Source of the DNA: Deltaproteobacteria bacterium RBG_13_43_22
GTDB lineage: Bacteria > Desulfobacterota > RBG-13-43-22
Length of the DNA: 64,000 nucleotides
Reading direction: 5' to 3'
NCBI GenBank assembly: GCA_001797675.1
Contig: MGQB01000002.1
Span: 1 to 64,000, forward strand
Under the pieces are notes generated by a model. That model had not been told where the DNA came from and ran no database searches. It saw only the letters and a program-made list of their open reading frames with translations. Shown here one piece after another: positions 3,360-46,759 of this stretch (within the stretch, counting starts at the first letter, position 1; each line of letters begins with the position of its first letter). A program made the position numbers and the translations under genes.

Positions 3360-3391
3360 TTCCGCAATCCGCAATCGGAAATCCGAAATCA
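3360..3391. repeat. Stuttering AATCCG-type repeat, single block
   Basis: A run of alternating CGCAATC / GAAATC units overlaps the last codons of metF. It resembles one arm of the stuttering inverted repeats found elsewhere in the window, but I see no clear long partner arm. Confidence 0.4.
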
Positions 3392-4312
3392 GACCTGCGG
3401 TCTTGGCAGGAGACCGGCCATTTCCACGATCTCGGGGACACGTTCTTCCCATTCAATAGCCATGACGTGGACCCCGGCAATACCTTTCATCTCTTTCAGC
3501 CGTTGGATGGTCTCCACGGCTATGGCGATTCCTTCTTTGGCCTGGTCTTTTTTACCCACGCCTTTCATCCGGTTGATAACCTCCTCCGGCACATCCATAC
3601 CCGGGACCAGGTTTTTCATATAGTTGGCCATACCGACCGATTTCATAGGGGTTACACCTCCCAGGATATAAACTTTTTCATCAATGCCCATATCCCGCAC
3701 TTGCTGCATGAATTTTTCAAAGCGGTCTAAATTATAGATACATTGGGTCTGGACAAAATCCACCCCGGCGGCCACTTTTTTCCCCAGTCGAACGGCCCGG
3801 AATTCTGCAGGATCGGCAAAAGGATTGGCCGCTGCGCCGATAAACATCTTGGGGGGAAATTCAATCTCCTGATCGTTAATGAATTTCCCATCGTCCCGCA
3901 TTTTTTTGACGGTTTGAATGAGTTGCATCGAATCCAGGTCAAAAACGTTTTTCGACGAGGGATGGTCCCCAAACTTCTGATGGTCCCCGGAGAGGCAAAG
4001 CATATTACGAACCCCCAGGGCATAGGCGCCTAATATATCGCTTTGAATGGCGATACGGTTCCGATCCCGGACCACCATCTGTAAATTGGGTTCCAAGCCT
4101 TCCTGCATTAAAATCAGACATCCGGCCAAACTGGACATGCGGACCACGGCCGTCTGGTTGTCGGTTACATTGACGGAATCGACCATGCCTCTCAGGTGAG
4201 CCGCTTTTTGTCGGACTATATCCGGATTAGCATTCCTTGGAGGACCGCATTCACCGGTTACAGCAAAATGACCGCCGGTTAAAACCTTTTCTAATTGGCT
4301 TCCTGATTTCAT
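3389..4312 (-). CDS. metF: Methylenetetrahydrofolate reductase, MetF subunit
   Basis: MetF is the flavin-containing catalytic subunit that reduces 5,10-methylene-THF to 5-methyl-THF, the last step of the methyl branch of the Wood-Ljungdahl pathway. The 307-residue barrel protein shows VTGECGPPRN near residue 17, SVNVTDNQ near 46, and the FVQTQCIYN / ILGGVTPMKS segments near 187 and 219. It overlaps metV by 4 bases (ATGA), so the two are translationally coupled, as expected for a MetVF pair. It is the last gene of the operon, followed by a terminator. Its C-terminal codons lie in a stuttering repeat, so the extreme C-terminus may be recently altered. Confidence 0.93.
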   Translation of the reverse strand: MKSGSQLEKVLTGGHFAVTGECGPPRNANPDIVRQKAAHLRGMVDSVNVTDNQTAVVRMSSLAGCLILMQEGLEPNLQMVVRDRNRIAIQSDILGAYALGVRNMLCLSGDHQKFGDHPSSKNVFDLDSMQLIQTVKKMRDDGKFINDQEIEFPPKMFIGAAANPFADPAEFRAVRLGKKVAAGVDFVQTQCIYNLDRFEKFMQQVRDMGIDEKVYILGGVTPMKSVGMANYMKNLVPGMDVPEEVINRMKGVGKKDQAKEGIAIAVETIQRLKEMKGIAGVHVMAIEWEERVPEIVEMAGLLPRPQV

Positions 4313-4977
4313 AGCTTCAAGTCCTCCCTTATGGTTTTCCTGGGGCCGCCGTCACGGCTGGTAGTCCAATCCTTGCAAGGGATGACCCGGGTCAATCGGT
4401 CCATCTGCCCCAGTCGGTTCAGACGATCGTAGATCAATTGCCAGACACAATCCACCTCTTTGCTGATCTCACACTTACCCTTGGATGATCCGCCGCATGG
4501 ACCGTTTAACAGGCTTTTGGAACAGCGGGCAATGGGGCACAAACCACCGAAATTATGAATGCCGCAGGCCCCGCAGGCCTGGCAGAATTCGGCAAAGACG
4601 CCATGTTCCAGAGATCCGCCGATGAAGGTGGTATTCAATCCCGGAAAAACCACTTTGTCGTCAAATCGGCCGGCAATATATTGAGGGCCCACACTACAGG
4701 CAATGGAAAGGACGGCATCCCGGTCCTTGATCACTTCCGTCAACTGGTCCATATATTCCGGATCGCATTGCCGCTCCAGGGTGATCTCTTTGACATCTGG
4801 TTCCTGTCCTTCTTTTTTCCGGGCGATGCGAAGTTCCGAGGCCAGGATTTCGACTTCTTTCTTTCCACCGGCATTACACACGGTCACACACCCTTTACAG
4901 CCGGCAACCAGGATTTTTTTATACGGCTGGACCATCTCCAACAGCTCGTTTAATGGTTTCCGTTCAGCCACAACCAT
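4309..4977 (-). CDS. metV: MetV, zinc/iron-sulfur subunit of methylene-THF reductase
   Basis: MetV pairs with MetF in acetogen-type methylene-THF reductases and links it to the electron-donating proteins. The 222-residue product is cysteine-rich: CKGCVTVC near residue 27, a C-S-V-G segment near 113, then a dense C-terminal cluster from about 153 to 185 (CQACGACG, CPIARCSK, GPCGG). These are likely ligands for an iron-sulfur cluster and a metal site. GGGAGGAAAATC precedes ATG 4977. Its neighbours are mvhD upstream and metF downstream in one minus-strand operon. Assignment rests on the cysteine pattern and on the coupling to metF. Confidence 0.9.
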   Translation of the reverse strand: MVVAERKPLNELLEMVQPYKKILVAGCKGCVTVCNAGGKKEVEILASELRIARKKEGQEPDVKEITLERQCDPEYMDQLTEVIKDRDAVLSIACSVGPQYIAGRFDDKVVFPGLNTTFIGGSLEHGVFAEFCQACGACGIHNFGGLCPIARCSKSLLNGPCGGSSKGKCEISKEVDCVWQLIYDRLNRLGQMDRLTRVIPCKDWTTSRDGGPRKTIREDLKL

Positions 4978-5063: not shown

Positions 5064-5492
5064 TTATGCTGCTTTTGCCTTTTGCCCGATCGGACTCGGT
5101 CCCAGATTTTTGATCTTCTCGGTCATTTCCCGGGCAATCTCGGCAAAGCGGGGGCCTTGAGCGGCAGACAGATTGTACATTTCCACCCGTTCCGGCTCAA
5201 GTCCCAATTCGGTTAAAATCTTTTTTACCTGACCGACCCTTTTCCGGGCCTTCAGATTACCACTGATATAATGACAATCCCCTTCCAGGCAACCGGCCAC
5301 ATAGATCCCGTCGGCCCCCTCCTCGATGGCGTTGAGCAGGTGGATCACATCCACCCGGCCGGTGCAGGGGACCATGATCACACGAATATTGGTGGGATAT
5401 TGCAGCCGCATCGAACCTGCCAGGTCCGCCGCACTATAGGCTCAATACTGGCAGCAAAAGGCCACAATCCTTGGTTCAAAATGATGGGACAT
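5064..5492 (-). CDS. mvhD: MvhD/FlpD-type delta subunit, predicted selenoprotein (in-frame UGA)
   Basis: MvhD is a small [2Fe-2S] protein that passes electrons to HdrA. Read through an in-frame TGA at 5442-5444, the gene gives 142 residues, the normal family length. The first 16 residues (MSHHFEPRIVAFCCQY) are the conserved MvhD N-terminus. The TGA falls at residue 17, in C-C-x-x-U, where the family normally has cysteine, and the frame continues as AYSAADLAGS. Without read-through the downstream ORF would begin at 5411 and lose the conserved N-terminus. A SECIS-like hairpin follows the TGA. Further cysteines are in CTGR near 43 and CLEGDCHY near 67. It lies between the HdrA fusion and metV. 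A sequencing error or plain TGT/TGC-to-TGA decay is the alternative, but the intact flanks and hairpin argue for selenocysteine. Confidence 0.88.
5412..5441 (-). promoter_or_regulatory. Bacterial SECIS-like hairpin of mvhD
   Basis: On the minus strand, 13 bases after the TGA, CGGACCT (5428-5422) pairs with AGGTTCG (5418-5412) in a 7-bp stem with one G-U pair. The loop is GGC. The apical loop starts 20 bases after the UGA and has G in its first position, as described for bacterial SECIS elements. Confidence 0.75.
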
Positions 5493-5518
5493 AAAAAACT
5501 CCTTTGATAAATAATAAG

Positions 5519-5611
5519 GTTCACGGTTTAAGGTACAAGGTCTAAGGTCAAAGGAAGCTGTTTCTTTGGAGATTTTTTCCCTTATACCCTGGACCTTATA
5601 CCTTGGACCGA
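5519..5611. repeat. Stuttering inverted repeat (HdrA fusion-mvhD gap)
   Basis: The left block repeats AAGGTNN units (GGTACAAGGTCTAAGGTC) and the right block is its imperfect complement (GGACCTTATACCTTGGACC). It fills most of the 122-base gap between the two genes. Confidence 0.65.
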
Positions 5612-5614
5612 TTT

Positions 5615-8600
5615 TTAAGCCGCTATCAGCGCGTGCACCTTGGCCAGTACCTGCCGGTCTGTAAAATGCTGTAGACTGATGGCTTTGGCCGGACATTCGG
5701 AAACGCAGACGCCACAGCCCTGGCATTTGGTGACATCGATTTCCGCCGCACCCCGTTCCCCGATGACCGGAACCCTGAAGGGGCACACTCGAACACAGGT
5801 CAAACAAACCGCACAGAGGTCTTCCTGAACCACGGCCACCACCCCGCCGACCTTGATAGTATCTTTGGCCAGCAGAGTTAAGGCCCTTCCGGCCGCGGCC
5901 TGGGCCTGGGCGATGCTCTCATCGATGGGTTTGGGGTAATGGGCTAGGCCGCAAAGGTAAATCCCGTCGGTGGCAAAATCGACCGGTCGCAGTTTCATGT
6001 GGGCTTCCAATAAGAACCCTTCGTTATTCAGAGGTATCTTGAAGCTCTCGGCCAGCTCTTTTACCGGATTAGGAATGATGGCGGAGGCCAAGGTTACCAG
6101 GTCGCTTTTAATGGTAATCGGTTTCCCCAAAACATGATCAATGACCGTAACCTGAATCTGACCTCCCTCAATCGTCACTTCCGGTTTGCTTTCCAGGTCA
6201 TAGCGAATAAAAAACACCCCTTGATTACGGGCCTCCCGATATAAATCTTCCCGTACTCCGAAGGTCCGGATATCCCGGTATAAAATAAATATATCCATAT
6301 CCGGGTTTTTCTTTTTCAAGGTCAAGGCGCTTTCCACGCTATGGGTGCAACAAACCTTGCTGCAATACGGCCGGTCCGGTTCTCTTGAACCCACACATTG
6401 TATAAATACGGCGGTTTGGGCCTTGGTTATCTTCGCATCCTGCCCGATTATCGCCCGATCCAATTCCAGGGCGGTCATAATACGGGGATCCTGCCCATAA
6501 GCGTAGATATCCGGTTTCCATTCCTGCCCGCCTGTAGCCAGGATGACCAGTCCGTGTTCAAGATCCTGTAGCTGACCTCCCTTGGTTATGGTGGTGGTGA
6601 AGTTGCCCACAAAACCGGAAGAATGAGAGATTTCCGTATTGAAATGGATCTGGATTAAAGGGTTATTGGCGACTTTGTTTGTCAGATCGAGAACATATTC
6701 CCCTATGTCCTCTCCTTTCCAGGTATGTCTTAAGTTCAGGGCATTTCCACCCAGGACTTCACTTTTTTCGATAAGGTGAACCGGAAAACCCTGTTCGGCC
6801 AAATTTAATGCAGAGGTCATCCCCGCCACACCGCCGCCGATTACCAATCCAGATTTTTTCAATGGGAAGGAGATTTTTTTCAATGGTTCCAGGTAGCCCA
6901 CCCGGGCTATAGCCATGCGAACCAAATCTTTGGCCTTTTCGGTGGCCTTCACCGGTTCTTGCTGGTGGACCCAGGAATTCTGGTCGCGGATATTGGCCAT
7001 ATCAAAAAGATACTTATTGATCCCCACTTCCTGAAGAGTTTCCTGGAACATGGGTTCGTGCGTTCGAGGAGAACAAGAAGCCACGACCACCCGGTTGATA
7101 TTTTTTTCCCGGATGACCTCTTTCATTTTATCTTGGGTATCTTGAGAACAAGTAAAGAGGTTCTGATCCACATGAACCACATGGGGCAGAGTTTGGGCAT
7201 ATTCCGCTACACCGGGAACATTAACGATTCCCCCGATATTGATCCCGCAGTTGCAGACAAAGACCCCAATCCGTGGTTCTTGACCGCCGACCTCGATCTC
7301 CTCCGGATACTCCTTGACCTTGATCAGGGTATTGCGGACTGAGGCAAGATTTTGGGTGGCTGCACAGGCGGCCGCTGAGGCCTCCATAACCGCCTGGGGA
7401 ATGTCTTTAGGCCCGTCAAATGCGCCGCAGGCAAATATGCCTTCTTGTTCGGTATTAACCGGACTGAAGCTGCTCACTTTGGCAAACTGGTTCGTATCCA
7501 AAGGGACATCCAGTTTTTTGGCCATCTCGATGGCTCCGGCCGCGGTTTCCATTCCTACGGATAGGACCACCATATCAAATTCTTCCTGAAGAACTTCCCC
7601 GTGTTCACTCACATATTGAATGAGTAAATTATCGGCCTCCGGGATGGGATCAATCGAGTGAATCCTGGAGCGTATGAATCTCACTCCCCTTTCTTCCGAT
7701 GCCCGGTCGTAATATTTCTCGAAATCCTTGCCATAGGTCCGCATATCCATAAAGAAAATGGCCGTATCCAAACCTTGAGGGGAATGCTCCTTGGCAATCA
7801 CGGCTTCTTTGATGGCATACATACAGCAAACCGCTGAACAGTAGCCATGGTCGCAGTGATTGATATCCCGTGAGCCCACACATTGCAGCCAGGCGATTTT
7901 TTTAGGTTCCTGGTGATCAGAGGGCCTCACCAAATGCCCCTGAAAAGGACCGGAGGCGGAAAGGATCCGTTCAAATTCCAAACTGGTAACTACATTGGGG
8001 TGTTTGGCATATTGATAGGTTTCAAAGGAAGTTGGATCAAAGGGCTGAAACCCCGGGGCCATAACCACTGAGCCCACCTGGAGTTGAAGGGTTTCTTCTT
8101 GGTCAAAGTGATTGATCGCCTCGGCTTTACAGGCTACGACACACTGCATACATTCGGAGCAGATGCCGCAATTCAAACAGCGGTCAGCTTCTTTGGTCCC
8201 CTCCACCGGGGTATATCCTTTTTCCACTTCATCAAAACAGGTGCAACAGATTTCCGGAGGCAGCACCCGCATAGGGGTCCGAGTCTTTTTCTCTTCATCC
8301 AAAGGTAAATTGGCCCAACTGGCCTCTTGAACTTTGTCCCGGGATCGACCGGCGGCCAAATTTTCACCTTTGAGATACCGATCGATCGATAAAGCGGCCT
8401 CCTGTCCTTCGGCCACTGCACCGATAGCGATATAGGGTCCGGTATGCATATCGCCGCCGGCAAAAACTCCAGGATGGCCGGTGGCAAAAGTCACCGGATC
8501 TACTTCGATGGTTCCATAGCGGGTGAAATTCAATCCATCGATCCCCTCCAGGGCAGTCAAGTCTGTAGCCTGTCCGATGGCCGGGATGATCATGTCAACT

Positions 8601-10048
8601 TCCAGGACGAATTCCGATCCTTTAATGGGTACCGGGCTGCGGCGGCCGGAGGCATCCGCTTCACCCAGTTCCATTCTAAGGCATTCCAAGCCCACGGCCT
8701 TGCCTTCCGCGACAAGAACTTTTGTTGGGGCCGCTAAATAATGGATTTTGACCCCTTCGCAAAGAGCGGCGTCTATTTCTTCTTCCCAGGCCGGCATCTC
8801 TTCCCGGGTTCGGCGATAAACGATGGTGACCTCTTTAGCCCCCATGCGGATGGCGGATCTGGCCACATCAATGGCCACATTCCCACCGCCGATAACGGCT
8901 AATCTTTGTCCCAATCGGACTTCCCGTTTTAAGTTAATATCCCGGAGAAGGTCCGTCCCTTGAAGGACCCCTTGGATCTCTTCTCCGGAAATCCCCAGGT
9001 TTTTACCCTTATGGGCCCCGATAGCCAGATAAACCGCTTTAAATCCCTGCTTAAAAAGGTGCTCAATGGTAAAATCCTTACCCAAAGCCGAATTCGTCTT
9101 TAGAGTCACCCCAAGTTTCAGGATGGAATCAATTTCATTTTGTAAAACATTTTTGGGAAGGCGGTAATCGGGGATGCCGACTTTGAGCATTCCGCCGGGT
9201 TCGGGTAAGGCTTCAAAAATAGTTACCGGATAGCCTTTAAGAGCCAAGAAGTAGGCCGCACCCAAGCCGGCCGGTCCACTTCCGATGATCGCTATGGGTT
9301 CTTCCCGTTTTTCTATTTCAGGTACAGGCAGAGAAAGGATATCCACCTGATCGGCAGCCAGACGCTTCAAGTCTCTAATGGCCACAGGATCGTCTACCTG
9401 GGCCCGGCGGCATTCGGTCTCACAAGGATGGGGGCAGACTCGTCCTAAAACCCCGACCAACGGCAGATGTTCTCTAATTAAATCAACCGCCTCCTTGTAT
9501 TTACCTATCTTTACCAGTTGGACATACCCCTGTACATTAATATGGGCCGGGCAGGTCATGGTACACGGTGCCCGATCCAATTTCTCAATGGCAAAAGCAC
9601 TTGGGAAAGCCTGGGCATAAGGCCTGGAAGTGGCCTTTCTTTTCGAAAGCCCTTGATCAAACCGGTTTTCTATCTCAACTGGGCAGACAACGGCACAGTC
9701 GCCGCAGCCTGTGCATTTGGAGAGATCTACATACCGAGGTCTTTTCCGGACTGTAACGGTAAAATTTCCAGGATTTCCTTGGATGCTTTGTATATCGGCA
9801 AGGGTCAAGGTTTGGATATTTAAATGTCTCCCGCATTCGACCACTTTAGGGGATAAAATACACATGGAACAATCGTTGGTGGGAAAAGTTTTGTCCAATT
9901 GGGACATAACTCCACCGATTGCCGGTGTTTTTTCTACTAAATAGACATAATAGCCTGATTCGGCCAGATCGAGAGAGGCTTGAATGCCGGCTATTCCTGC
10001 CCCAATCACCATAACGGCTCCAACTTTATTTGTTTCTGCTTCTGCCAT
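5615..10048 (-). CDS. HdrA-GltD-HdrA fusion flavoprotein, electron-transfer hub of the MetVF complex
   Basis: This 1477-residue protein joins two HdrA-type halves and a GltD-like NAD(P)H unit. Residues 13-135 are an FAD fold with GAGIAG, the HdrA cluster TFPTNDCSMC and a ferredoxin motif CTGCGDC. Residues 150-565 are GltD-like, with CTMTC and CPHPCETEC cysteines and two dinucleotide folds (IIGSGPAG near 254, VIGGGN near 385). The first HdrA half resumes at about 595-900 with CLNCGICSECMQC. The second HdrA half spans 925-1400, starting with VCNCG and carrying a new FAD fold at 1069. A 2[4Fe-4S] ferredoxin ends it (1412-1452). The start at 10048 is chosen for AAGAAGGA upstream; longer reading runs into the fhs terminator. 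There is no hdrB or hdrC nearby. An electron-bifurcating or NAD(P)H-linked role with MvhD and MetVF is inferred. Confidence 0.88.
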   Translation of the reverse strand: MAEAETNKVGAVMVIGAGIAGIQASLDLAESGYYVYLVEKTPAIGGVMSQLDKTFPTNDCSMCILSPKVVECGRHLNIQTLTLADIQSIQGNPGNFTVTVRKRPRYVDLSKCTGCGDCAVVCPVEIENRFDQGLSKRKATSRPYAQAFPSAFAIEKLDRAPCTMTCPAHINVQGYVQLVKIGKYKEAVDLIREHLPLVGVLGRVCPHPCETECRRAQVDDPVAIRDLKRLAADQVDILSLPVPEIEKREEPIAIIGSGPAGLGAAYFLALKGYPVTIFEALPEPGGMLKVGIPDYRLPKNVLQNEIDSILKLGVTLKTNSALGKDFTIEHLFKQGFKAVYLAIGAHKGKNLGISGEEIQGVLQGTDLLRDINLKREVRLGQRLAVIGGGNVAIDVARSAIRMGAKEVTIVYRRTREEMPAWEEEIDAALCEGVKIHYLAAPTKVLVAEGKAVGLECLRMELGEADASGRRSPVPIKGSEFVLEVDMIIPAIGQATDLTALEGIDGLNFTRYGTIEVDPVTFATGHPGVFAGGDMHTGPYIAIGAVAEGQEAALSIDRYLKGENLAAGRSRDKVQEASWANLPLDEEKKTRTPMRVLPPEICCTCFDEVEKGYTPVEGTKEADRCLNCGICSECMQCVVACKAEAINHFDQEETLQLQVGSVVMAPGFQPFDPTSFETYQYAKHPNVVTSLEFERILSASGPFQGHLVRPSDHQEPKKIAWLQCVGSRDINHCDHGYCSAVCCMYAIKEAVIAKEHSPQGLDTAIFFMDMRTYGKDFEKYYDRASEERGVRFIRSRIHSIDPIPEADNLLIQYVSEHGEVLQEEFDMVVLSVGMETAAGAIEMAKKLDVPLDTNQFAKVSSFSPVNTEQEGIFACGAFDGPKDIPQAVMEASAAACAATQNLASVRNTLIKVKEYPEEIEVGGQEPRIGVFVCNCGINIGGIVNVPGVAEYAQTLPHVVHVDQNLFTCSQDTQDKMKEVIREKNINRVVVASCSPRTHEPMFQETLQEVGINKYLFDMANIRDQNSWVHQQEPVKATEKAKDLVRMAIARVGYLEPLKKISFPLKKSGLVIGGGVAGMTSALNLAEQGFPVHLIEKSEVLGGNALNLRHTWKGEDIGEYVLDLTNKVANNPLIQIHFNTEISHSSGFVGNFTTTITKGGQLQDLEHGLVILATGGQEWKPDIYAYGQDPRIMTALELDRAIIGQDAKITKAQTAVFIQCVGSREPDRPYCSKVCCTHSVESALTLKKKNPDMDIFILYRDIRTFGVREDLYREARNQGVFFIRYDLESKPEVTIEGGQIQVTVIDHVLGKPITIKSDLVTLASAIIPNPVKELAESFKIPLNNEGFLLEAHMKLRPVDFATDGIYLCGLAHYPKPIDESIAQAQAAAGRALTLLAKDTIKVGGVVAVVQEDLCAVCLTCVRVCPFRVPVIGERGAAEIDVTKCQGCGVCVSECPAKAISLQHFTDRQVLAKVHALIAA

Positions 10049-10137
10049 AGAATTTTGTCCTTCTTGCTCTTTTAAATAATAAAAAATGCCTTCCCTGTAG
10101 TATTTTCCCGGGGAAGGCGAGGGAAAACAAAAAAAAT

Positions 10138-10170
10138 AAAAGCCCAGGGAGGTCCTCCCTGGGCTTTTTG
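10138..10170 (-). terminator. Terminator or attenuator after fhs
   Basis: The 11-bp stem AGCCCAGGGAG / CTCCCTGGGCT is flanked by A and T runs; on the minus strand a long T tract follows. It sits between fhs and the HdrA fusion, so it may reduce read-through from fhs into the downstream redox genes. Confidence 0.8.
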
Positions 10171-10178
10171 TTGTTGGG

Positions 10179-11942
10179 TTAGAATAATCCTTTGGTCTTT
10201 CCGGTTTTGACATCCACATCGATTCGGCGGAAGGCCGGATCGGAAGACGTTCCAGGCATCAGGGTAATGGTCCCGGCTACCGGGCAAAGGAATTTAGCCC
10301 CGGAATAAATCAAGATATCCCGTACCGGAAGGGTCCATCCCTTGGGAACCCCTTTTTTGGCCGGGTCATGGCTAAGGCTCAAATGGGTCTTGACCATCAT
10401 GGTGGCATAATCGTTGTATTTGGAATCGGCCTCGAGCATCTTGGCCTTGGATTCGGCTTCTGCGGTCCAGGAAACCCCGTCGGCCCCATAGACTTCCTTG
10501 GCGACCTTGGTGACCCGGTCCCGTAGTTTCATTTCTAATGGATAGAGAAACTTGAACTTGGATTTTTCCTTGCAGGCATCGATGACTGCATCGGCCAGCT
10601 CCAGTGCTCCATCCCCCCCATCGGCCCAATGGGTCGAAAGGGCACAGCGGGCCCCGGCCTTTTCAGCCGCTTTTCTTACCGCCGCGATTTCATCCTTGGT
10701 GTCAGTGTGGAAGGCGTTGATGCAGACCACTGGATTCATGCCAGATTTGCGGATAACCTCGATGCAGTGAACCATGTTAGCCAAACCCTTTTCCACCAAA
10801 CCTACGTTCTCTTTGGTGTATTCGTCGGGCAGGGCCAGCCCGGCCACGACCTTGGGGCCACCGCCGTGCATTTTCAAGGCCCGGATGGTGGTGGTTAAAA
10901 CCGAAACATGGGGTTTTAGCCCGCTGTAGCGGCATTTGACGTTCCAGAATTTTTCAAAACCGATGTCGGCCGCAAAACCGCTTTCGGTTACATGATAATC
11001 AAAAAGTTTCAAGCCCACCCGATCGGCAATAATGGAGGACTGGCCCACGGCAATATTAGCGAAGGGACCGGCATGAACCAGACAGGGCTGATACTCGGCG
11101 GTGCACATCAGGGTCGGATTGATGGATTGGACCATAAAGGCGGTCATGGCGCCCCCCACCTGCAGGTCACCGGTGGTTACCGGATTCCCTTTCTTATCGA
11201 AAGCCACGGTGATTTCATCCAGACGCTTGCGCATATCGGCCAGGTCATTGACGATGGATAAAATGGCCATAACCTCGGAGGAAACGGCGATCCCGAACTT
11301 GGATTGCATCATAAAACCGTCCATCCGGCCGCCGATACCGATAATGATATTGCGCATGGCCTGGGCACAGAAGTCGATAATCCAGCCCATCTCCACCCGG
11401 GTGGGATCAATGTCCAAACGGCGCATCTTGGTCAACCGTTTCAACTGTTCATCATTGTAATTCCGTTCGTGCTGCATCCTGGCCGTCATGGCCACCATGG
11501 CCAGGTTGTGAGCATTCATGATATTATTGATATCCCCGGTCAGACCCATAGAGAACTCGGTCATGGGGATCAGGAGGGCGTTTCCGCCGCCGGCCGCAGT
11601 CCCTTTGATGTTCATGGTCGGGCCGCCTGAAGGCTGCCGCAAGGCGCCGCCCACATTGACCCCTCTCTTGCCCAAACCTTCCATGAGGCCGCAGGAGGTG
11701 GTACTTTTCCCTTCTCCCAGGGGGGTAGGGGTTATCGCGGTAACTTCAATGTATTTTCCATCTTCTTTATCTTTGAGACGGTTCATGATTTTCATGAAGT
11801 CCATACGGGCCAACCGGCCGTATGGGATCACTTCCTCTTTTCGGAGCCCCAACTTTTCCCGCCATTGATCGGGATTAGGCATGTTTTTTTCGGCAGCTTC
11901 GGAAATCTGCCAGTCCTTCATTTTTACTGCATTATACGCCAT
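10179..11942 (-). CDS. fhs: Formate--tetrahydrofolate ligase
   Basis: Fhs makes 10-formyl-THF from formate, THF and ATP in the cytoplasm, the entry to the methyl branch. The 587-residue protein shows the P-loop [13 protein letters not shown] near residue 72, [13 protein letters not shown] near 102, and the GGGP and FHTD segments typical of the family. A strong AAGGAGG site lies 10 bases before ATG 11942. It is the first gene of the minus-strand methyl-branch operon and starts from a promoter overlapped by an inverted repeat at 12024-12041. 10-formyl-THF is also the substrate of the AICAR transformylase encoded at 15806. Confidence 0.97.
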
Positions 11943-45193: not shown

Positions 45194-45880
45194 ATGCGCT
45201 ATTATCCTGTTTTTCTCAATTTGCAAAACGTTCCCTGTTTGGTAATCGGGGGCGGCCAGGTGGGGGAACGAAAGGTAAGAACCCTGCAATCCTGCTCGGC
45301 CCGAGTTAATCTGGTCAGCCGGGAATTAACCCCATATCTCGAAAAGGAGGTGGAACAGGGCCGGATTACGCTTCTTGCTTCGACTTATCAAACCGAATAT
45401 TTGCAAGAGATGTTCCTGGTTATTGGGGCTACCGATGATCCGGAACTCAATAAAAAAATCGGCCATGAGGCCCTAGCACGCGGAATACTATGCAACATTG
45501 TTGACAAACCCAAGGAATGTAACTTCATCCTCCCTTCTCTGGTCTGCCGGGGGGATTTGACCATCGCCGTCTCCACTGCCGGGAAAAGCCCGGCCTTGGC
45601 CAAAAGAATCCGCCAGGAATTAGAACAGGAGTTCCCCGAAATCTACACCCCATATCTGGAATTGTTAGGCCAAATACGTGACGAGGTCCTGGCCCGCAAT
45701 AGGTCTCAGGAAGAGAACCAAAAAATCTTCGAATCCTTGGTCAACGCTCCTATCTTGACTTGGTTAGAGAACGGAAATTTTGAATCTTTGTTTGGTTTAT
45801 TAGATCATCTTTTGGATCCGCCTTATCCCCGATCCAAGTTAAATGAAATATTAAACCAACTGTTCCCTTTCCCCCTGTGA
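45194..45880 (+). CDS. Precorrin-2 dehydrogenase/sirohydrochlorin ferrochelatase-type protein
   Basis: The 228-residue protein matches the N-terminal part of CysG (Met8 type): an NAD fold with VIGGGQVGERKV near 17, GATDDPELNKKI near 78, and the VSTAGKSPALAKRIR segment near 125. It oxidises precorrin-2 to sirohydrochlorin and may insert iron. The product feeds siroheme or, in Desulfobacterota, the alternative heme route. hemA follows two genes later. The C-terminal 60 residues are less conserved. Confidence 0.9.
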   Translation: MRYYPVFLNLQNVPCLVIGGGQVGERKVRTLQSCSARVNLVSRELTPYLEKEVEQGRITLLASTYQTEYLQEMFLVIGATDDPELNKKIGHEALARGILCNIVDKPKECNFILPSLVCRGDLTIAVSTAGKSPALAKRIRQELEQEFPEIYTPYLELLGQIRDEVLARNRSQEENQKIFESLVNAPILTWLENGNFESLFGLLDHLLDPPYPRSKLNEILNQLFPFPL

Positions 45881-45886
45881 GGACCT

Positions 45887-46759
45887 ATGGCCTTTTTCTT
45901 TTTTAAGTGCGCATTAAGTCTCTATCTGTCAGGCACCCTGGGATATATTTTATTTATGGTCTTTCAAATCAAACCGATGGCCAGGATTTCTTATGGCCTT
46001 CTCCTGGCGGGATTTTTGTCCCACTCGCTGACCATTGCCCTCTGGTATGCCCAAATCGGTCATTTCCCGGTTCAAACCTTTGGAGAATCCCTCTCGTTTT
46101 TTGCTTGGGCGATTATCGGGGTTTACCTTTTAATTCAGGTTCGATTCAATATATTAGTCCTGGGGTCTTTTCTTTCTCCCCTGGCTGCGGTGATGATGAT
46201 TAGTTCTTCCTTTCTTCCCCCTCTAACCGGACCAGCCAACCCCTTGCTGCAAAATATTTGGCTGATGGTTCATGTGGGTACCATCTTTATCGGTAACGGG
46301 GGTTTTGCCATTGCCTTTCTGGCCGGCGTTATGTATCTCATCCAGGAACGGCAGATCAAATCCAAGCACTTAGGCCTTCTTTATCATCGGCTGCCCTCCC
46401 TGGAGGTCTTGGACGCCTTGAACTACAACTGTTTGATCCTCGGATTTCCTTTTTTGACCTTGGGTATGCTCAGCGGATCGGTCTTTGCCCATTACACCCT
46501 CGGCATATTCTGGAGGTGGGATCCCAAAGAGGTCTGGTCCCTAATCACCTGGTTGCTTTATGCCGCCCTGTTGCACGGCCGTCTGGTGGCCGGCTGGCGG
46601 GGCCGCCGCTCGGCAATGATCTCTATTGTCGGATTTCTCATTTTGGCTTTTTCTTTCTTGGGAGTCAATTTTTTGGTTAAAGGATATCACAGTTTCTCCG
46701 CTTTTAAGGTCCCGGCTATCGAGGTTCAGGAATTGTTAAAGAGAAAAAATATCCGATGA
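45887..46759 (+). CDS. CcsA/HemX-type cytochrome c assembly membrane protein
   Basis: The 290-residue protein has about eight membrane helices and a WWD-like motif, FWRWDPKEVWSLITW, near 205, found in heme-handling CcsA/CcmC proteins. Its place between a precorrin-2 dehydrogenase gene and hemA matches the HemX type, thought to affect GluTR levels or heme export. GAGGA precedes ATG 45887. I cannot separate the two roles from sequence. Confidence 0.85.
   Translation: MAFFFFKCALSLYLSGTLGYILFMVFQIKPMARISYGLLLAGFLSHSLTIALWYAQIGHFPVQTFGESLSFFAWAIIGVYLLIQVRFNILVLGSFLSPLAAVMMISSSFLPPLTGPANPLLQNIWLMVHVGTIFIGNGGFAIAFLAGVMYLIQERQIKSKHLGLLYHRLPSLEVLDALNYNCLILGFPFLTLGMLSGSVFAHYTLGIFWRWDPKEVWSLITWLLYAALLHGRLVAGWRGRRSAMISIVGFLILAFSFLGVNFLVKGYHSFSAFKVPAIEVQELLKRKNIR

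Follow-up and report, generated by a model that had tools for sequence, protein, structure and literature searches.

The mvhD gene in the window (the whole 64,000-nucleotide stretch of DNA analysed) is very probably a genuine bacterial selenoprotein gene, in which an in-frame TGA at codon 17 would be decoded by SelB-driven insertion of selenocysteine (Sec) and the resulting MvhD would connect HdrA and MetVF. During translation of mvhD, SelB and Sec-tRNA-Sec would bind a hairpin just 3' of the UGA, and selenocysteine would be inserted at residue 17. MvhD, presumably with a [2Fe-2S] cluster, would then connect electrons between HdrA and MetVF, i.e. the methylene-tetrahydrofolate (methylene-THF) reductase of the Wood-Ljungdahl pathway. 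MvhD homologues carry a [2Fe-2S] cluster and pass electrons to HdrA (PMC12350162).

An in-frame TGA at codon 17 of mvhD

The gene occupies 5064-5492 on the minus strand and, when read through the TGA, encodes 142 amino acids including Sec17. Read from 5492, the minus strand runs MSHHFEPRIVAFCCQY-TGA-AYSAADLAGSMRLQY..., which places the TGA at exactly 5442-5444 (minus strand), and the frame beyond it is open down to a stop at 5064-5066. The start codon is an ATG at 5490-5492; a ribosome-binding site, AAAGGAG (5499-5505, minus strand), can be read directly 6 bases upstream of it, and close relatives have similar upstream sites. The read-through protein matches the FlpD/MvhD family PF02662 along the whole model (positions 1-123 of 123) with a score of 178 bits, the cut-off being 22.3, and E 8.9e-53; it also matches solved MvhD/VhuD subunits. 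Within this protein the TGA replaces the second cysteine of C14-x-x-C17, giving the local motif C14-Q-Y-U17.

An earlier note on this DNA had claimed that a TGA interrupts mvhD at this position, that a conserved N-terminus precedes it, and that gene callers would miss the first 27 residues. All three claims held: the TGA and the open frame are there in the minus-strand letters, the residues ahead of the TGA are kept across genomes with Cys14 invariant, and, because the next in-frame ATG is Met28, an ordinary gene caller drops 27 residues, the open reading frame list giving a 115-residue frame alone. If the TGA were instead a true stop, the gene would either be decaying or produce a shorter protein from Met28. 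This reading draws on the 115-residue product of ORF calling and on an assembly without selB (see below), but it leaves the conservation of the residues before the TGA unexplained. We judge it very improbable, given also the exchange with cysteine and the downstream constraint described below.

Cysteine and selenocysteine exchange at residue 17

Homologues were compared in two sets that have few genomes in common. The first covered the window's genome and relatives, 39 genomes in all, 35 of which contained mvhD homologues, and gave 99 aligned homologues; the second comprised 80 named-genome hits obtained with this MvhD as the query, and therefore samples close relatives instead of surveying all of them. 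Cultured relatives that have the gene include Dethiosulfatarculus sandiegensis (L186) and Desulfamplus magnetovallimortis (L174). Codon 17 was TGA in 26 of the 99 homologues, TGC or TGT in 67 and another codon in 6, i.e. the residue is Cys or Sec in 93/99; among the 80 named genomes it was TGA in 41 and TGC or TGT in 39. The Cys/Sec exchange that the earlier note had proposed looking for is thus seen, with Cys or Sec in 93/99 and 80/80 sequences, and an in-frame TGA aligned with cysteine, the mark of a bacterial selenoprotein gene, occurs in both sets (26 TGA to 67 Cys codons, and 41 to 39). TGA was the sole stop at this codon, with neither TAA nor TAG among the 99 homologues. It is this placement, exactly in a cysteine column and shared by independent genomes whose frames have no other stop, that speaks against a true stop. 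The window comes from one draft assembly, so a sequencing or assembly error hiding a TGC, TGT or TGG codon might be suspected; however, TGA also stands there in the two congeners (93% and 91% protein identity) and in the 41 of 80 independently assembled named genomes, and we consider such an error barely credible.

The same alignment bears on what the selenol might do. All 99 homologues have Cys at positions 14, 43, 68 and 73 (with Sec as the alternative at 68), whereas six of them have Ser, Asp, Trp, Leu or Gly at residue 17 and so neither Cys nor Sec. Four unvarying positions are enough to hold a [2Fe-2S] cluster. We therefore think, with moderate confidence, that the Sec17 selenol is less likely to be an obligatory ligand than a redox-active or tuning residue lying by the cluster.

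A conserved hairpin downstream of the TGA

The 7-bp hairpin with a GGC loop that had been noted 13 bases after the TGA was confirmed: it has the sequence CGGACCU-GGC-AGGUUCG (5412-5428, minus strand), runs from 5428 down to 5412, includes one G-U among its 7 pairs, and has its loop 20 nt past the TGA. Published rules for bacterial SECIS elements (bSECIS) specify a loop of 3-9 nt, a stem of 4-16 bp, a G at one of the first two loop positions, a distance of 16-37 nt from the UGA and a minimum free energy (MFE) of at most -7.5 kcal/mol (PMC13188914). The hairpin lies within these rules, with its GGC loop, 7 bp, 20 nt spacing and an MFE of -12.7 over 40 nt counted from the TGA; the 17-nt hairpin alone has an MFE of -6.9. 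Folding the downstream bases, a check advised at the outset, therefore gave an energy that satisfies the rule but a stability that is ordinary relative to shuffled sequences (z -0.4 to -0.7, with about one quarter to one third of shuffles equalling it). We did not use hairpin energy as evidence, since shuffles fold nearly as well. A genome search with Rfam RF00031 found no match anywhere, including at all 14 controls, and so carries no information; an Rfam scan of the TGA site produced one chance match alone.

Conservation, by comparison, indicates that the hairpin is more than a chance structure, as the TGA and a 12-base block are kept together in 41 of the 80 named genomes. The block, GAC CTG GCA GGT, is identical in 41/41 Sec genes and is found in 1/39 Cys genes; among the 16 Cys genes with the same four amino acids it likewise occurs once. 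The outermost pair of the hairpin varies in the 41 Sec genes (G-C in 18, C-G in 16 and an unpaired C-C in 7), and a G on the left was accompanied by a C on the right in 18/18 cases. Through this switch between G-C and C-G closing pairs, a Gly/Ala difference at the protein level is accompanied by a synonymous change of Ser codon. Common descent inflates p-values in comparisons of this kind, but it would not easily explain a constraint that tracks the TGA and not the protein. A block frozen at synonymous positions in TGA genes only is also difficult to reconcile with a true stop.

Selenocysteine machinery and other TGA-containing genes

The genome contains the tRNA-Sec gene (selC), selA and selD, and selD is itself interrupted by a TGA, in its UxxK motif. 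Of the four genes that the earlier note had listed for a search, these three were therefore found but selB was not: it is absent from the 85%-complete assembly, in which all that matched were segments of other frames scoring far under the cut-off, presumably from other translation GTPases. Because both congeners have selB and the assembly is 85% complete, selB is likely missing through an assembly gap. The idea that it lies in a contig gap at the location seen in a congener was not supported, the flanking genes matching two separate contigs without selB. Three further genomes with a TGA-containing mvhD (G003, G015 and G036), all incomplete and fragmented assemblies, likewise gave no selB match above the cut-off.

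The missing selB could also be taken to mean that the TGA is decoded as some other amino acid, whether through a reassigned code or through readthrough with Trp or Cys. Set against this, TGA serves as an ordinary stop elsewhere in the window, e.g. between the genes at 45194-45880 and 45887-46759, homologues have Cys at this site, the genome has tRNA-Sec, selA and selD, and the hairpin block is kept only together with the TGA; this reading is accordingly most unlikely, and we favour selenocysteine. Other TGA-interrupted frames occur in the window at 45878, 11628 and 43694, that at 11628 lying opposite the formate-THF ligase gene. The TGA at 45878 was rejected as a Sec candidate because it simply ends the first of two neighbouring genes that share a frame; by eye, the genes at 45194-46759 resemble a siroheme-type dehydrogenase and a cytochrome c assembly protein.

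Further TGA-containing genes in the same genome comprise three mvhD copies, two hdrA-like frames and three formate dehydrogenase (fdhA) matches. At two loci (G000:C19:42076-45509 and G000:C13:90608-94204) an hdrA-like frame and the adjoining mvhD both carry an in-frame TGA. One genome of the first set, G008, has no selB above the cut-off and no TGA in any MvhD match. Its best mvhD (L036, on G008:C221) encodes Cys (TGT) yet retains the exact GAC CTG GCA GGT block, which looks like a fossil SECIS left behind when Sec was exchanged for Cys and would fit a recent loss of Sec use in G008.

Gene neighbourhood

On the minus strand the cluster reads formate-THF ligase (10179-11942; PF01268, E 1.6e-212), hdrA (5615-10219), mvhD, metV (4309-4977; PF12225, E 8.3e-36) and metF, the methylene-THF reductase gene (3389-4312; PF02219, E 3.6e-41), with the ligase gene upstream in the same orientation. 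The earlier note's assignment of mvhD to the side of MetVF was correct, metV-metF flanking it on one side and hdrA on the other, so that the four genes of an Hdr-type MetVF reductase, hdrA, mvhD, metV and metF, are adjacent. The hdrA gene is a long form with an inserted GltD-like domain (Pyr_redox_2, Fer4_20 and Fer4 domains) and, in the search of its own genome, no stop or TGA within its frame; its listed start, which overlaps the upstream gene, may be too early. No hdrB or hdrC was apparent among the listed ORFs of the window and the proteins searched against Pfam, and these genes may be encoded elsewhere.

The arrangement is widely kept. The formate-THF ligase gene has the same placement in G001 and G004, metV lies directly 3' of mvhD in 73 of the 80 named-genome hits, and the hdrA-mvhD-metV-metF cluster is kept across families, with nearly all of the 80 named-genome genes in such a cluster. 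The gap between hdrA and mvhD (5516-5611) contains five copies of a AAGGTCCAAGGTATAAGG-like motif, on both strands and forming an inverted repeat, where 0.04 would be expected by chance. Short repeats in the intergenic DNA of a congener match many contigs of the window's genome.

Relation to known systems

Sec in hydrogenase- or HdrA-associated proteins had been described at the outset as known in methanogens, which is correct; it is not confined to them, having been predicted in MvhD/FrhD/VhuD of methanogens, Deltaproteobacteria and clostridia by 2005-2006 (PMC1242214, PMC1794560). A 2026 review lists PF02662 as a selenoprotein family with the motif CxxU and records more than one Sec residue in certain archaeal members (PMC13188914). 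The window's MvhD shares with this FrhD/MvhD/VhuD family its PF02662 domain, the CxxU position and the linkage to hdrA (PMC13188914, PMC1794560, PMC1242214), and is a well-supported added member of a family already known for Sec, although its neighbours are metV-metF and not hydrogenase genes. In Desulfobacterium autotrophicum HRM2, Sec has been described in MvhD1, 2, 3 and 5 (PMC2702500). There too a sulfate reducer has a Sec-containing MvhD beside hdrA or hdrL, hdrL being a fusion of HdrA with glutamate synthase like the window's long HdrA, but the loci described lie with genes for Dsr, hydrogenase or formate dehydrogenase (PMC2702500).

The gene order is that of the MetVF clusters of Moorella thermoacetica and Sporomusa ovata, which is hdrA-mvhD-metV-metF as in the window (PMC9430772, PMC5736913). 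The Moorella HdrA, as described, resembles the window's long HdrA with its inserted GltD-like domain, MvhD of Sporomusa ovata binds HdrA, HdrB and MetF in pull-downs, and membranes in which these proteins are present use hydrogen to reduce methylene-THF (PMC9430772); the clusters of these two species include hdrB and hdrC, whereas neither was seen in the window's cluster.

In our search of openly licensed texts, no publication described Sec in an MvhD linked to MetVF. Of the relatives retrieved here, about half are predicted to make the MetVF-linked MvhD as a selenoprotein, and this protein belongs to a carbon-fixation enzyme complex over whose electron path debate continues. The result mends a gene model that automated annotation would cut short, and the existence of matched Sec and Cys versions within a single conserved cluster offers natural pairs with which to test the role of selenium in an iron-sulfur electron carrier.

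Homologues with a TGA at residue 68

Other MvhD homologues have a TGA at residue 68 and not at 17 (L022, L045, L047, L048, L054, L056 and others), often followed by the frozen codons CTG GAA GGA AAT. One of these, L022 (C4:30744), is a Sec68 paralogue within the window's own genome. None of the 99 homologues carried both Sec17 and Sec68 in one MvhD; this exclusion gave p 0.0006 across the 99 sequences but lost significance (p 0.56) after thinning to 31 below 60% identity, and we give it as no more than an observation.

In the dereplicated sets, synonymous identity at codons 20-24 was 0.62 for Sec17 genes, 0.40 for Cys genes and 0.33 for Sec68 genes, and at codons 75-79 it was 0.42, 0.40 and 0.64, respectively. 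The codon constraints are therefore separate, a double dissociation which indicates that each TGA has its own downstream element. It is possible, though we lean against it, that MvhD has Sec at cysteine 17 or, as an alternative, at cysteine 68, with a separate in-frame SECIS for each site, and never at both in the bacterial sequences examined; the search of openly licensed texts found no description of two such sites in bacterial MvhD. If true, there would be two placements of a selenol at one iron-sulfur site, as a non-ligand at 17 and as a cluster ligand at 68, and the choice between them would differ from lineage to lineage and even between paralogues in one genome. In 2000 permutations of the labels, neither the Sec17 value over codons 18-27 nor the Sec68 value over codons 69-80 was ever reached.
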